Assembly: GCA_019694595.1 (NCBI GenBank)
Contig: JAIBBQ010000053.1
Span: 1-34,610 of the forward strand
Source of the DNA: Myxococcaceae bacterium
GTDB taxonomy: Bacteria; Myxococcota; Myxococcia; Myxococcales; Myxococcaceae
Direction of reading: 5' to 3'
DNA: 34,610 nt
Position 1 is the stretch's first letter. Each line of letters opens with the position of its first letter. The position numbers were made by a program, and so were the translations under genes. The notes below the pieces were generated by a model, which was not told the DNA's origin, ran no database searches, and was given only the letters and a program-made list of their open reading frames with translations. Shown here one piece after another: positions 28,236 to 34,610 of the stretch.

Positions 28236-28876
28236 TGGCGCAGGGTGGCGAGGGCCTCGGCCAGGTCGCCAGGCAGGGGCGCTTCGACCTCCAGCCGGAC
28301 GCCCCCGAGCGGCAGCGAGAGCGTGCTGGCGTGCAAGGGCGTGCGCGCGAGGCCGAACCTGGGCTCGCGGTGCCCGTACTGGTGGTCGACGAGCAGCGGG
28401 TGGCCGAGCGACGCCAGGTGCACCCGGATCTGATGGGTGCGACCGGTGTGGGGCACGGCGCGCACCAGGGTGGCGCCGCGCAGCGCCTCGACGGGCGTGA
28501 AGTCGGTGCGGGAAGCGAGGCCCTGCTCGCCGGGCCGTGCGAGGCGCACCTTGCCGCCGCGGATCTTCACCAGGCCTCGTTCGACGGTGACGCTCGAGGC
28601 GAGCACCCCTTCCACCAGCGCGAGGTAGCTCTTGCCGACCTCGCCGTGCTCGAAGGCGCCGTTGAGCGCGCGGTGGGTGTCGGCGTCGAGCGCGAAGGCG
28701 AGCGCGCCCGTGGTGTCGCGATCGAGCCGGTGCACCACCCACACGCTGCGCCCGAGCTGGGCCTCCAGCTGCGCGCGCACGCAGTCGCCGCCGTCGCGGC
28801 CGGGAATCACCGGCACCCCGGCGGGCTTGTCGACCACCACCACCTGCGGGTGCGCGAGCAGCACCCGCAGCGTCAT
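28229..28876 (-). CDS. RluA family pseudouridine synthase
   Basis: A 215-residue protein that isomerises uridine to pseudouridine in rRNA or tRNA. The catalytic motif HRLDRDTTG (Asp in RLD) lies at about residues 50-58, preceded by VVVDKPAGVPVIPG and followed by KSYLALVEG, PHTGRTHQIRVHLASLGHPLL and the late segment RTPLHASTLSLPLGG. There is no N-terminal S4 domain, so it resembles the short RluA/TruC/RluC-catalytic-core type; the exact target base cannot be told. ATG 28876 overlaps the stop of the inactive M16 subunit by 4 nt. It ends a long, tightly overlapping gene chain. Confidence 0.92.
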   Translation of the reverse strand: MTLRVLLAHPQVVVVDKPAGVPVIPGRDGGDCVRAQLEAQLGRSVWVVHRLDRDTTGALAFALDADTHRALNGAFEHGEVGKSYLALVEGVLASSVTVERGLVKIRGGKVRLARPGEQGLASRTDFTPVEALRGATLVRAVPHTGRTHQIRVHLASLGHPLLVDHQYGHREPRFGLARTPLHASTLSLPLGGVRLEVEAPLPGDLAEALATLRQA

Positions 28877-30225
28877 CCGAGATCCTTGGGGCTCACCACC
28901 TGCACCGGGCCCAGGTCCTTCACCTGGGGGGCGATGGCCTTGGCGTTGCCCACCAGCACCAGGGTGAGCGCGTCGGGCTCGGGCAGGTGCCGCGCGGCGA
29001 CGGCGGCCGCGCGCTCGCGGGTCACCGCCATCACGCGATCGCGGTACTTCTCGATCCAGTCGGCGGGGAGCCGGTAGGTGTCCACGTCGGCGATGGCCCC
29101 GGAGATGGCGTCGTTGGTCTCGAGCCGAGTCGGGTACAGCCCGGCGAGGTAGCGCTGCACGGTGGCCAGCTCGGCCGGGGTCGGGCCCTTGGCCTTCATG
29201 CCCGCGATCTGCGCGCGGGCGATGTCCACCAGCTCTCGCGTCGACTCGGTCTTGGTGAACGACGAGAAGGCGAAGGCCCCCGCGGCGCGCAGGGTCTCGA
29301 AGTGGCAGCCGGCGCCGTACGAGAGCCCCCGCTTCACGCGGATCTCCCGCATCAGCCGCGAGGTGAAGCCGCCGCCGAGCGCGGTGTTCGCCACGCCCAG
29401 GGGAATCTGGTCTTCGTGCCCGCGCTGGATGCCGCTCGCCCCCAGGCGCACCTGCACCTGGCTCTGCTCGGGCTTGTCGACGATGGTCACCTGCCCTGCC
29501 CTGGTCGCGCGCGAGAAGCGCGGCAGCGGCGTGAGCTCGCTGGTCGGCCGCTTCCAGCTGCCCAGGGCCGCCTCGAGCCGCGCCACCACCTTGGCCGGCT
29601 CCACGTCGCCCACCACGTAGAGACTGGCGCGCGCGGGCGTGAAGAGCGCGCGGTGGCGTTCCACCAGCGCAGGGCGACCGAGCGTCTCCAGCGAGCGCTG
29701 GGTGCCGGTGAGGTCGAGGCCGTACGGGTGCTCGCCCCACACCGCACGCTGGAGCGCCCGCTCGGCGAGCGAACCCGGGTCGTCGAGCTCGTTCGACAGC
29801 TGCGCCAGGGTGCGCCGCCGGGCGAGCTCCACCTCGGCGTCGGGGAAGTCGGGCTGGGTGGCGACCGCCGCCAGCAGCTCGAGCTGGGAATCGAGGTGCC
29901 GCGACGGGGTCTGCAGCGCGACGCCCACCGTGTCCTCGCTCGCCCACGCACCCAGGGACGCGCCCACGAAGTCCACCGCGTCGGCGATCTGGTCGGCGCT
30001 CTGGCCGGCGGCGCCGCGCCGCAGGAGCCGCACCGTGAAGTCGGTGAGCCCGGGCACGCTGATGGGGTCGTGCGCCCCACCTTCCTGGATGAGGAGCCGC
30101 AGCGAGACGAGCGGCAGCGCGCCGCGCTTCACCACGTGCACCGTCACCCCGTTGCTCAGGGTGAAGGTCTCCCTGCGGGGGGCCTCGAGCGGCCGCAGCG
30201 TCACCACCGCGCTGGAGCGCTTCAC
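28873..30225 (-). CDS. M16 peptidase-like subunit lacking the zinc motif
   Basis: A 450-residue M16 (pitrilysin/insulinase clan) protein from GTG 30225. Fold landmarks are clear: FTLSNGVTVHVV, LPLVSLRLLIQEGGA, then the substrate-side motif LMREIRVKRGLSYGAG (Arg/Tyr that bind the peptide C-terminal half). Where the zinc-binding H-x-x-E-H should be, after PGL at residue 60, the sequence is TDFTVRLL with no His or Glu pair, so it cannot bind zinc. Two-subunit M16B enzymes pair one zinc subunit with one such partner. It overlaps the active subunit by 4 nt, and together they would form the heterodimer. No signal peptide seen. Confidence 0.9.
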   Translation of the reverse strand: MKRSSAVVTLRPLEAPRRETFTLSNGVTVHVVKRGALPLVSLRLLIQEGGAHDPISVPGLTDFTVRLLRRGAAGQSADQIADAVDFVGASLGAWASEDTVGVALQTPSRHLDSQLELLAAVATQPDFPDAEVELARRRTLAQLSNELDDPGSLAERALQRAVWGEHPYGLDLTGTQRSLETLGRPALVERHRALFTPARASLYVVGDVEPAKVVARLEAALGSWKRPTSELTPLPRFSRATRAGQVTIVDKPEQSQVQVRLGASGIQRGHEDQIPLGVANTALGGGFTSRLMREIRVKRGLSYGAGCHFETLRAAGAFAFSSFTKTESTRELVDIARAQIAGMKAKGPTPAELATVQRYLAGLYPTRLETNDAISGAIADVDTYRLPADWIEKYRDRVMAVTRERAAAVAARHLPEPDALTLVLVGNAKAIAPQVKDLGPVQVVSPKDLG

Positions 30226-31529
30226 GCGTTCACCGCCTGCGGCACCAGCGTCACCACCGAGCGGCGCTCGGGCCGGAGGTACTTCTTGGCCGCCGCCTGC
30301 ACCTGCGCCTTGGTCACCTGCTCGTAGCGCGAGGCGAGCGCCAGGCCCTGCCGCCAGTCGCCGAGCATCGTCTCGTACGTCCCCAGCGCGTGGGCGCGGC
30401 CGTTGTTGGTGGACAGCTCGCGAATCAGGTGCGCCGAGAGGTTGTTGCGGGCCTTCTCGACCTCGCGATCCTCGAGGCCGTGCTCCTGCACGCGCTCGAG
30501 CTCGGCGTAGAGCGCGGCCTCGGCCGCCTTGGGGTCGGCGCCGGGCTTGAGCTCCATCGCCACCAGGAACGCGCCGGGGTCGAAGCGCCAGGTCCAGTCC
30601 ACCGACACCGAGACGGCCATCTCCTGCTGGTAGACGAGCGCCTTGGTGAGCCGGCTCGACTGGCCGACCGACAGCGCGTACTGCAGCACGTCGAGCACCA
30701 GGGTGTCGGGGTCGTCTCCGCGCGGGCCGCGCCAGGCGACCAGCAGCGACGGCGACTGGGCGGGGTGGCGCACCTCGGCGCGGCGCTCGCCCTTCTGCTC
30801 CGGCTCGGCGTCGAGCACCGGCGGCGCGGCGGGCCCCGGCTTGATGCCGCCGTAGCGCTTCTCGAGCAAGGCGAGCGCTTCCTTGGGGTCGAAGTCGCCC
30901 GACAGCCAGAGCGTGGCGTTGTTGGGCGCGTAGTACGTGCGGAAGTAGTCGAGGCAGTCCTGACGGGAGATGGCCTCGATGTCCCGCTGCCAGCCGATCA
31001 CCGGCCAGCGGTAGGGGTGCGCCTTCCACACCAGGCTCGAGAGTTCCTCGTCCATCAGCCCGGCGATCTCGTTGTCCACGCGCAGGCGGCGCTCTTCCAG
31101 CACCACCTGGCGCTCGCTCTCGAGCATCTTGGGAGTGACCTGGAGCGACTGCATGCGGTCGCTCTCGAGGTCGAGGACCGTGGGCAGCGCCTCGGCCATG
31201 AAGTCCTCGTAGTACACGGTGACGTCGTTCGAGGTGTACGCGTTCGAGGTGCCGCCGCTGGCCTCGAGCACCTTGTCGAATTCGCCCGGCCCGAAGCGCT
31301 TGGCGCCGTTGAACATCATGTGCTCGAAGAGGTGGCTGATGCCGGTGGCGCCGGGGCGCTCGTTGCGCGAGCCCACCTTGAAGAACGTGTAGAGCGTGCA
31401 GGTCGGCACCGCGTGCGACGGCAGCAAGCGAACCTTGAGCCCGTTGCGCAGCGTGTGCTCCCTGACCGACTTCGCCAGGGGCTGGAGCGCGGGGGGAATC
31501 ACGGGCTTGGAGATCGAGGGGCGCTTCAC
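30222..31529 (-). CDS. M16 family zinc metallopeptidase, catalytic subunit
   Basis: A 435-residue peptidase with the inverted zinc motif HLFEH at residues 66-70 (GISHLFEHMMFNG) and the third ligand Glu near 146 in VVLEERRLRVDN. TLRNGLKVRLLPS precedes and VGSRNERPGATG leads into the motif, as in processing-peptidase-like M16B proteins. GTG 31529 is chosen from a GGAG 10 nt upstream and the typical N-terminal strand; the reading frame is open further upstream but overlaps the hydrolase gene and has no family similarity. Works with the neighbouring zinc-less subunit. Length is usual for an M16B subunit. The peptide substrate is not evident. Confidence 0.93.
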   Translation of the reverse strand: MKRPSISKPVIPPALQPLAKSVREHTLRNGLKVRLLPSHAVPTCTLYTFFKVGSRNERPGATGISHLFEHMMFNGAKRFGPGEFDKVLEASGGTSNAYTSNDVTVYYEDFMAEALPTVLDLESDRMQSLQVTPKMLESERQVVLEERRLRVDNEIAGLMDEELSSLVWKAHPYRWPVIGWQRDIEAISRQDCLDYFRTYYAPNNATLWLSGDFDPKEALALLEKRYGGIKPGPAAPPVLDAEPEQKGERRAEVRHPAQSPSLLVAWRGPRGDDPDTLVLDVLQYALSVGQSSRLTKALVYQQEMAVSVSVDWTWRFDPGAFLVAMELKPGADPKAAEAALYAELERVQEHGLEDREVEKARNNLSAHLIRELSTNNGRAHALGTYETMLGDWRQGLALASRYEQVTKAQVQAAAKKYLRPERRSVVTLVPQAVNA

Positions 31530-31542
31530 GGGTCGGGGACTC

Positions 31543-32586
31543 CTACGGCTGGGCATCGAGGAAGTTGAGCAGCGGGGTGAAGACGTCGTGTGGCGCGTGG
31601 TCGCCGACGACCAGGTCCATGTGACCGTACTCCGCACCCGCGCCGTTCGCAGGGCAAACGAGCAGCCACTGCTTGGGGCCGCCGAGGGCGCGGTACCCGT
31701 CGCGCACACCTGGCGTGAGCGCGATGTGATCGAGCCGGGCGGCCACCACCAGCACCGGGGTGTGGACCTGCGACAGCCCCGCGCGGAAGTCGAGCTGCCC
31801 GTCGGCGCTGGCGAAGCGGCCGGTCGCCATCCACCCGCGGAACTGTTCCAGCACCCCGCTGGAGATGTCGGCGGTGCCGTACGCGAACAGCGCGCGCATC
31901 ACCGGAACGGGGGTATTCGACGGCTCGTAGAACAGGCGCTGAAGCGGCGCGTCGGCCAGCCCGTGAAACGGCGCAGCGAGGTGGGCGCCGAAGGCGGTCG
32001 GAATCGAGAAGCCCACGGGCACCAGCGCGCCGAAGCGCTCGATCACCGGCTCGACGCGGGTCCCCCAGTCGAGCCGGGTGGGCGAACCCAGCGTGACCGC
32101 GGCGTGCACGCCCTGTCCGCCCTGCGACAGGTACGCGTAGAGGACCAGGCCCCCCATGCTGTGGCCGACGAAGTCCACCGGGCCCGCGTGGGTGACGCGC
32201 TCGATCTCCTGCAGCGCGGTGGGGAGATCGTCCTTCCAGAACACGTCGAAGGCGTACCCCGGTGGCCGACCGCTGCCGCGGTCGGGATCGTCCGACGAGC
32301 CGGTGCCGCGCAAGGACAGCGTCCACGCCTCGCGGCCGTGCGCCACCAGCCAGCGCGCCAGGCTGTGGCCCTCGTCGAGGTCCATGTTGCGGGAGTTCGC
32401 GGCGACGCCGTGCAGCAGGAGCACCGGCGGGCCCTTGGGCAGCGTGGGGGTGCGGTAGCGCACCAGCTCGAGGCCGTAGCCGTCACTGGTGCGCGGCCGG
32501 TACGTCTCGGTGGCCACCGGCCGCGGCGCCACGTGCACGCAGCCGCTGGCGAGACAGAGCGCGATCGCCGTCAGCGCCACCCTCAC
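31543..32586 (-). CDS. Lipoprotein alpha/beta hydrolase
   Basis: A 347-residue protein from GTG 32586 with a lipoprotein signal MRVALTAIALCLASGC (lipid on Cys16). The hydrolase fold shows LLLHGVAANS (oxyanion), the nucleophile elbow VGHSMGG with Ser143, and the His motif near the end (EYGHMDLVVG). The acid is probably in VLVVAARLDHIALTPG. It resembles lysosomal/gastric-lipase-like AB hydrolases (SDGYGLELVRY, LDEGHSLARWLVAHG, TLSLRGTGSSD). It would act at the outer membrane or periplasm on an ester, unknown. It overlaps the preceding related gene by 4 nt and precedes the M16 pair by 13 nt. Confidence 0.85.
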   Translation of the reverse strand: MRVALTAIALCLASGCVHVAPRPVATETYRPRTSDGYGLELVRYRTPTLPKGPPVLLLHGVAANSRNMDLDEGHSLARWLVAHGREAWTLSLRGTGSSDDPDRGSGRPPGYAFDVFWKDDLPTALQEIERVTHAGPVDFVGHSMGGLVLYAYLSQGGQGVHAAVTLGSPTRLDWGTRVEPVIERFGALVPVGFSIPTAFGAHLAAPFHGLADAPLQRLFYEPSNTPVPVMRALFAYGTADISSGVLEQFRGWMATGRFASADGQLDFRAGLSQVHTPVLVVAARLDHIALTPGVRDGYRALGGPKQWLLVCPANGAGAEYGHMDLVVGDHAPHDVFTPLLNFLDAQP

Positions 32587-33530
32587 GGCAGCGGCTCCTC
32601 GAGGAACGCGACGATGGGCGCCCACACGTCTCGGGCAGCCTTCGCGCCGCGCAGGAGCGACAGGTGGCCATAGTCTTCCGCCGCGAGCTCCGCCGACGAG
32701 AGGCTGAGGATTCTCACCTGGGCCCGGGGAGCGAACTCACGCAAGGGCGCGGCGAGCTCGGGCCCCACCCAGCCGTCGGCGAGGCCCAGGACCAGGATGG
32801 TGGGGCGGTCGAGCCGGGAGAGCCGGGCGCGCACCGAGTCACCCGGGCCCAGCTCGAGATCGTGGCGCTGCATCCACCGCAGCAGGGAGCGCGCCCGCCG
32901 AGGGCCGAGATCCCCGAGCAACGCGAGCTGGGTCGACAGCTCGCGCGGAGGAATCGTGCTGCGCACCGCGAAGAGCTGTTCCAGCGCGGCGCGGCCGTCG
33001 GGATCCTGCGCCAGGCTCGAGAGCGCGCCGCCGGCATGGAGCACCTTCTCCACCAGCGCGCTGGGCACGTCGGCGTCGGCCGGGGTGGCGATCGCCGCCA
33101 CGCGCCCCACTCTCCCGGCGAACTCGACCGGCACCGCGGCGAGCGCCAGGGCCCCCGCCCAGCCGTGCGCCACCAGGTCGAAGGTCGGCTCGGGAATGGC
33201 GCGGGCCACCGCGGGGAGATCGCGCAGCACGAGGTCCACGAGCTCACCGTCGGGACCGGGAGCCGCCGCGCCCTGCCCGCGCAGCTCGGCGACGTAGACG
33301 GTGCGCCCCCGGGCCACGAGCGCGCGCGCCAGCCCGCGGCCGTCGAGATCGAAGAGCTGCCGCCCGAAGCCCAGGTCGGCGATCAGCAGCACCGGCCGCT
33401 GTCCCTCACCCCGCCCCGGCGGCGAGTACCGGTACAGCGCCACCGCTGCGCCGTCGGACGCCACCACCTTGCGGTGCGAGACCTCGAGCTGGCCCTGCGC
33501 CAGCGCCAGCACGGCGAGCACTGCGATCAC
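32583..33530 (-). CDS. Alpha/beta hydrolase-fold protein lacking the nucleophile (probable pseudo-enzyme)
   Basis: A 315-residue homologue of the next gene, sharing its layout: HRKVVASDGAAVALYRYSPPG, DLDGRGLARALVARG, TVYVAELRGQG, then FDLVAHGWAG where the partner has DFVGHSMGG. Aligned, the catalytic Ser is Gly123. The oxyanion region is also changed (ADLGFGRQ in place of LHGVAANS). The late His is kept (EDYGHLSLL). It is therefore probably inactive as a hydrolase and may bind a ligand or the partner. The first ~12 residues (MIAVLAVLALAQG) look like a short signal peptide. GTG 33530 overlaps the response regulator stop by 4 nt. Confidence 0.8.
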   Translation of the reverse strand: MIAVLAVLALAQGQLEVSHRKVVASDGAAVALYRYSPPGRGEGQRPVLLIADLGFGRQLFDLDGRGLARALVARGRTVYVAELRGQGAAAPGPDGELVDLVLRDLPAVARAIPEPTFDLVAHGWAGALALAAVPVEFAGRVGRVAAIATPADADVPSALVEKVLHAGGALSSLAQDPDGRAALEQLFAVRSTIPPRELSTQLALLGDLGPRRARSLLRWMQRHDLELGPGDSVRARLSRLDRPTILVLGLADGWVGPELAAPLREFAPRAQVRILSLSSAELAAEDYGHLSLLRGAKAARDVWAPIVAFLEEPLP

Positions 33531-34189
33531 AGCTCGACCAGCCCCGCCTTGAGCGCGAGCACCACCGCCTCGACGTGCGAGTTGACGCCCATCTTCTTGT
33601 AGAGGTGAGAGAGGTGGGTGCGCACCGTGCGCCGCTCCATCGCCATCACCTCGCCCACCTCGGCGTTCGACAGGCCCTTGGCGACGTACCGCAGCACGTC
33701 GAGTTCCTTCTCGTTGAGGCCCCAGGGGTTGGTCGTCTGCTGCGGCTTGCCCTGGACCGAGTGGAAGTAGTTCCAGAACCGTTTGGCGATCACCGCCTCG
33801 ATGACCGTGCCGCCGTCGAGCACCTCGCGGATCGCCGAGCGGATCTTCTCGGGCCCGACGCGCTTGACCAGGTAGCCGGCGGCGCCTGCCTTCACCGCCT
33901 CGTACACCTTCACCTCGTCGTCGAACGAGGTGAGCACCAGGATCTCCACCGCGGTGGTGCGCGCGCGCACGCGGCGGGTGACCTCGATGCCGTCGATGCC
34001 CGGCAGCTCGAGGTCCATCAGCACCACCTGCGGCTGGAGTTCGACGATCTCCGCCACCGCGGCCTCGCCTTCCTGCGCGGTGCCCACCACGGTGAGCTCG
34101 GGGAAGAGCGAGAGCGCCTTGAGCAGGTTCTTGAGCAGCGGCGCCTGGTCCTCGACCACGTACACCCTGACCTGCGCGTCGTCGCTCAT
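33527..34189 (-). CDS. NarL/FixJ-type response regulator
   Basis: A 220-residue two-domain regulator. The receiver domain (1-~125) has the acidic pair Glu13-Asp14, phosphoacceptor Asp59 in VVLMDLELPG, Thr87 in LVLTSFDD and Lys109 in YLVKRVG. The C-terminal LuxR-type helix-turn-helix (~150-215) reads LNEKELDVLRYVAKGLSNAEVGEVM, RRTVRTHLSHLYKKMGVNSHVEAV. It would be phosphorylated by a histidine kinase, not visible in the window, and bind DNA as a dimer. ATG 34189 overlaps the upstream stop by 4 nt. Heading the chain of hydrolase and peptidase genes suggests co-expression, not necessarily control of them. Confidence 0.93.
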   Translation of the reverse strand: MSDDAQVRVYVVEDQAPLLKNLLKALSLFPELTVVGTAQEGEAAVAEIVELQPQVVLMDLELPGIDGIEVTRRVRARTTAVEILVLTSFDDEVKVYEAVKAGAAGYLVKRVGPEKIRSAIREVLDGGTVIEAVIAKRFWNYFHSVQGKPQQTTNPWGLNEKELDVLRYVAKGLSNAEVGEVMAMERRTVRTHLSHLYKKMGVNSHVEAVVLALKAGLVEL

Positions 34190-34610
34190 CGCTTGCCCCG
34201 GAACACGGGCTGCATCTTCACCGTCTTGCCCGCCACGAACGACTGTTTTTGCTCGTCGCGCTCGCGGGTGCGCTGGTCGATCACCGCGATGGAGTGCACG
34301 CCCGGAGCCACCGGCACGTTCTCGGGCTTCACGCACACCTGGTCGCCGTCGATCTCCACCCGGGCTGGCCGGTCGAGCACCACCGTGAGCAGCGCCGCGC
34401 CCCGCTTCACCGGGGCGTCGTAGCAGTCGAGCACCGGCGGCGGCGCCGGCTTGGGCACCACCGGCGGCGGCACGGGCCTGGGGGCGACGGGGAGCTTGAC
34501 CTCGAGCACCCGCGCCGGCGGCGGCCGGTACGCCGGCAGGCGGTTGGAACCGCGCCACCAGAAGAGCCCCACCACCACCAGTGCCCCGGTGAAGAAGAAG
34601 GCCCCCGCGA
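34186..34610 (-). CDS. Membrane protein with C-terminal PEGA-like domain, truncated at window edge
   Basis: Only the C-terminal ~141 residues are visible; the frame is open to the edge, so the start lies outside. A membrane segment (AGAFFFTGALVVVGLFWW) sits right at the edge, followed by a Pro-rich linker (RPPPARVLEVKLPVAPRPV) and a small domain of about 80 residues. That domain has LTVVLDRPARVEIDGDQV, then APGVHSIAVID, reminiscent of PEGA domains (short beta sandwich with G-x-H near the end). One Cys pair-like CYD and CVK are seen. PEGA domains often follow a membrane helix of Ser/Thr kinases or histidine kinases, but the N-terminal part needed to say so is missing. Confidence 0.65.
   Translation of the reverse strand, partial: AGAFFFTGALVVVGLFWWRGSNRLPAYRPPPARVLEVKLPVAPRPVPPPVVPKPAPPPVLDCYDAPVKRGAALLTVVLDRPARVEIDGDQVCVKPENVPVAPGVHSIAVIDQRTRERDEQKQSFVAGKTVKMQPVFRGKR

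Follow-up and report, generated by a model that had tools for sequence, protein, structure and literature searches.

In the window (the whole stretch of DNA that was analysed, 34,610 nt of contig JAIBBQ010000053.1 from a Myxococcaceae bacterium, assembly GCA_019694595.1), two alpha/beta-hydrolase genes, here called A and D, lie in tandem between a response regulator gene and two M16 genes. Listed in the direction of transcription, the features are:

34186..34608, minus strand: C-terminal end of the regulator's upstream neighbour, in a relative a Ser/Thr kinase gene; truncated by the contig end
33527..34189, minus strand: NarL-type response regulator gene, directly upstream of A and sharing a GTGA overlap with it
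32583..33530, minus strand: A, pseudo-hydrolase gene of 315 aa with a GTG start; hydrophobic N-terminus, Gly123, Asp252 and His289
33162..33164, minus strand: Gly codon 123 of A, at the nucleophile elbow
32583..32586, minus strand: GTGA overlap of the A stop and the D start, read from the sequence
31543..32586, minus strand: D, lipoprotein alpha/beta-hydrolase gene of 347 aa; lipobox Cys16 and triad Ser143/Asp286/His322
30222..31556, minus strand: M16a peptidase with HLFEH, a conserved neighbour downstream
28873..30222, minus strand: M16b pseudo-peptidase without HxxEH, a conserved neighbour downstream

The start codon of A sits within the stop of the regulator gene, whose product matches Response_reg (E 1e-23) and GerE (E 2e-15). 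The fragment at 34186-34608 gave no family match, and no histidine kinase was seen beside the regulator (window 33527-34608, minus strand); in both loci that were scanned for it, the regulator is preceded by a Ser/Thr kinase gene.

What sets the two hydrolases apart? A and D are homologous over nearly their full length (29% identity, E 1e-15), as the first-pass annotation had proposed for these tandem genes. In the alignment, Gly123 of A (LVAHGWAG) stands opposite Ser143 of D (VGHSMGG). In an AlphaFold2 model (mean pLDDT 91.9 for A from a 12-row alignment; 89.6 for D from 16 rows), Gly123 occupies the nucleophile-elbow position, where strand 117-122 turns into helix 123-132. The oxyanion His-Gly, H59-G60 in D, has become A51-D52 in A, and the triad acid and base, Asp252 and His289, are kept. 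The same annotation had read A as a hydrolase with Gly for the nucleophilic Ser, an altered oxyanion segment, and a retained fold and late His; all of this agrees with the alignment and with the alpha/beta-hydrolase model.

In structural comparison, the model of A falls within the alpha/beta-hydrolase fold (1000 of 1000 chains aligned at Z >= 8), and the best matches to both proteins, near full length, are gastric and lysosomal acid lipases (PDB 1k8q, 1hlg and 6v7n). The closest in each case is dog gastric lipase, 1k8q, with Z 31.0, 287 aligned residues and an rmsd of 2.8 for A, and Z 37.6, 329 residues and 2.9 for D. Because these matches extend over nearly the full length, A appears to retain the whole fold including the cap region. 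The likeness has its limits: identity to the acid lipases is only 14-20%, A is without the nucleophile and the oxyanion His-Gly, and D, which keeps the triad, is a bacterial lipoprotein. Sequence profiles searched against solved structures gave gastric lipase as the best match for D (1e-22) and an entry named OsmC family protein for A (6e-12), and with Pfam Abhydrolase_1, A scores 25.4 bits, just below the cut-off of 25.8, and D is above it with 51.4. SglT (NF058544) was matched by one of 19 A rows (E 0.0009), and at 16 bits against a curated cut-off of 300, the A of genome G041 is not a member of that family. Taken together, models and motifs suggest that A is probably an exported protein.

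D, judged by the same kinds of evidence, looks like an intact lipase/esterase-like lipoprotein hydrolase. Alignment of 15 sequences shows its triad (Ser143, Asp286 and His322) and its oxyanion H59-G60 unchanged in all 15, in line with the active lipoprotein hydrolase of the first-pass annotation. The lipobox pattern was matched by 23 of 29 D leaders, and inspection by eye placed a Cys after a hydrophobic leader in the remainder. D of the window is not a class I PHA synthase (TIGR01838; 32.7 bits against a curated cut-off of 622.65). Four genomes (G003, G007, G027 and G088; loci L173, L174, L175 and L176, respectively) encode a diverged lipoprotein of the D clade with the elbow motif [GA]YSLGA, and have no A.

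How old is the exchange of Ser for Gly? A profile search of 195 genomes of the phylum returned 28 A matches of at least 202 bits in 27 genomes, the best match below this set reaching 174 bits and carrying the motif GHSMGG; a 29th A came from the record of isolate OFTM289 (L091). Among the named carriers are MAGs that bear the labels Archangium sp., Archangiaceae, Myxococcaceae and Myxococcales. The A homologues have Gly at the nucleophile site without exception (29/29, Ser in none), as opposed to Ser in 69/69 other related hydrolases, both counts referring to distinct sequences left from 261 matches after removal of duplicates and of those with fewer than 230 aligned residues. The contrast exceeds what chance would give, and homologues that keep Ser, named in the first-pass annotation as a refutation, are absent from the set. 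The Gly codon itself varies (GGC in 20, GGG in 8 and GGA in 1 of the 29). In an IQ-TREE phylogeny of 98 rows, all Gly rows fall on one side of a single branch (support 100/97), consistent with one change, and this clade is not nested within D; the A sequences of G042 and L091 form long branches, and their exact positions are unsure. Across eight genome pairs, dN/dS ranged from 0.09 to 0.30 for A and from 0.12 to 0.20 for D. A is thus under purifying selection, and its loss of Ser is old and fixed across all homologues found. Since the nucleophile is always lost, in myxobacteria and close relatives, next to an intact D, we read A as a maintained protein with a job rather than as a decaying gene. 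With a conserved catalytic residue lost and the protein maintained, A is a probable pseudoenzyme.

Conservation within A centres on the former active site. Gly123, Asp252, Glu258 and His289 are all invariant in a 17-row alignment and are among the only six invariant columns once the deepest members are included (19 rows); among 312 positions, His289 ranks first, Gly123 third, Asp252 fourth and Glu258 seventh. Asp252 and His289 are present in 28 of 28 rows long enough to cover them. In the 29th, from the MAG G023, both are encoded downstream of an in-frame stop; in the tree and conservation sets this sequence is represented by the part before that stop, hence its gap at both positions. The same MAG (L039 / L089) combines the in-frame TGA in A with a frameshift that splits D, reflecting either real decay or an assembly error. 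As to a replacement nucleophile, which would have undone the first-pass view of an inactive protein, Ser, Thr or Cys fills at most 21 of 29 rows in any column of A (T149 reaching the highest count), and no such residue is conserved. The backbone at the elbow has a strained geometry that favours Gly after loss of Ser. The constancy of Gly123 consequently indicates that the elbow was kept, and by itself not that it functions; a continued importance of the pocket is hinted at more strongly by the survival of Asp together with His.

The genomic context ties A to D. A is followed immediately by D in 29/29 cases (truncated by contig ends in G002 and G056), and the two genes overlap by exactly 4 nt in 26 of them, the exceptions being 1 nt in G004, 11 nt in G010 and a gap of 127 nt in G001. 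A response regulator is located directly upstream of A in 25/29; none was detected beside A-D in G037 (both copies), G042 and L091. The usual order in family f1 is kinase C-terminus, response regulator, A, D, M16a, M16b and RluA. We examined ten further regulator regions, from genomes without A and from G042. In six (G022, G121, G095, G110, G014 and G008) the order is regulator-M16a-M16b-RluA with neither A nor D, and these six genomes contain no A-family match and no match at the level of the D partner elsewhere; in the other four (G007, G028, G163 and G042) the regulator is located elsewhere. Given that regulator-A-D also occurs in genomes of families f2, f3 and f7, it is simpler to suppose that A and D were lost together, as one unit.

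The M16 genes may form a second pair of this kind. HxxEH is present in 26/26 M16a homologues and in 0/25 M16b homologues, and by this sequence criterion M16a/M16b look like a typical active/inactive heterodimer. One locus would thus harbour two enzyme/pseudo-enzyme pairs, M16a/M16b and A/D, which could be coincidence or more.

Do A and D also evolve together? In a mirror-tree comparison of distance trees (15 genomes, 6 families), A-D had a partial r of 0.19 (p 0.12), no higher than the background set by the genes around them, with M16a-M16b as a control at 0.68 (p 0.0005); an unexpected D-M16b signal of 0.60 marks the test as noisy. The first-pass annotation had suggested that A is produced together with D as an inactive regulatory or binding partner. 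Co-production is supported by co-encoding in every genome found to have A and by the recurrent 4-nt overlap; binding or regulation of D by A finds no such backing from co-evolution. Lack of a mirror-tree signal and the four genomes having a D-clade protein, albeit one with the changed motif [GA]YSLGA, and no A also mean that an obligate A-D contact is not supported. The 127 nt between the genes in G001 speak against a partnership as well, and shared operon membership alone is no proof of contact.

What, then, is the role of A? We tentatively favour, with a probability of about 0.45, a non-catalytic protein of the acid-lipase fold that lost its Ser once and is, at the envelope, a prozyme-like or pseudo-subunit-like partner of D. 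Accordingly worded, an exported, stably folded, acid-lipase-like A would have lost its nucleophile a single time, in an ancestral member of the class Myxococcia, and would since have been kept as a non-catalytic protein, produced together with D, a putatively intact lipase or esterase of the same fold. At the cell envelope, the retained pocket (the Gly elbow and Asp252-His289) might bind an ester or lipid ligand, or hold A in a D-compatible conformation, and A could thereby gate D, present substrate to it or stabilise it. A functional pairing of A and D is likely, their physical pairing unproven; we only infer that A binds a ligand, that it touches D, and which way any effect would run.

A could instead be an independent receptor or binding protein of the envelope, working for the kinase and response-regulator part of the operon; it would have a ligand or its regulation in common with D, with no contact between them. 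We consider this doubtful. It would fit the regulator directly upstream in 25/29 and the Ser/Thr kinase before it in the two loci scanned, as well as the absent co-evolution signal and the full fold and cap region kept in A. The constant partner of A, however, is D and not the regulator, given the A-D pairs with no regulator detected (both copies in G037, G042 and L091), and the regulator for its part persists without A in the six syntenic loci.

Retention of Asp252-His289 could equally mean residual chemistry. A would then still be an enzyme and would target a molecule akin to the substrate of D, its dyad either serving as general base towards water or substrate or catalysing a reaction other than hydrolysis. 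The former triad positions ranking 1, 3 and 4 of 312 point this way, as do the invariant Asp, Glu258 and His (19/19 rows) and the contrast to human NDRG3, a non-enzymatic relative by fold that is described as having lost all three triad residues (PMC7022630). Yet the oxyanion His-Gly of A is replaced too, no conserved substitute nucleophile exists, and human DPP10 has Ser exchanged for Gly at the nucleophile and is inactive, with His and Asp still hydrogen-bonded, and modulates channels (PMC4350108). Retention alone is therefore no proof of chemistry, and we regard an enzymatic A as unlikely.

It is likewise improbable that A is not dead at all and represents a nucleophile-less alpha/beta-hydrolase family, its best-conserved features being the retained Asp-His dyad and Gly elbow. 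Such a family would carry out acid-base chemistry on a lipid or ester made or used by D, or would be an obligate sensor of that ligand. Least credible by far is that A arose as a duplicate of D and is now degenerating. The A gene of G023, one of the 29, does have an in-frame stop, with D frameshifted in the same MAG, but recent decay to a pseudogene is ruled out by Gly in 29/29 with synonymous codon turnover and dN/dS of 0.09-0.30, and A forms one old clade outside D.

The favoured reading, a non-catalytic A acting with D, makes the pair a variant of a known pseudoenzyme class. Neuroligins, Drosophila yolk proteins and mycobacterial MPT51 beside Ag85A are non-catalytic relatives of alpha/beta-hydrolases or lipases, belonging to subfamilies other than that of A. 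Neuroligin is described as a catalytically inactive, ligand-binding esterase (PMC5385555). DPP10 resembles A in being a maintained non-catalytic protein with Gly at the nucleophile site and Asp and His kept; it differs in being a eukaryotic relative of S9B peptidases with a beta-propeller, and in having a potassium channel as its partner and not a paralogous hydrolase. For FAM20A and AdoMetDC, a review states that inactive homologues activate or inhibit an active partner by heterodimerising (PMC10211241). The AdoMetDC prozyme and FAM20A are, on that basis, like A as proposed here, an inactive homologue kept as the partner of an active enzyme; their folds are unrelated, and heterodimers are proven there and only proposed for A-D. 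Similar in gene arrangement is the M16B family, for which active/inactive heterodimers are established, the prokaryotic TTHA1264/TTHA1265 and SPH2681/SPH2682 among them (PMC12731061). As with A-D, adjoining genes encode the active and the inactive homologue; unlike A-D, these are zinc peptidases of another fold in which both halves are established as needed for activity. A literature search listed no open-access paper on a tandem pair of the A-D type. Here, the nucleophile was lost only once, at a point that the phylogeny locates, a putatively active paralogue is fixed next to it and genomes exist from which the pair is jointly absent, which makes the purpose of a dead hydrolase directly testable in two small proteins.

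Individual genomes depart from the common arrangement. G037 carries two A-D pairs on separate contigs (L048 and L049), with Gly in both A copies. In G042, a 261-aa protein with no Pfam match (L172:8921-9706, minus strand) is encoded directly upstream of A-D, at the usual place of the regulator. A itself has a lipobox-like leader in G009 (L037 1547-1680) and in G042 (L172), and may thus be membrane-anchored in both.
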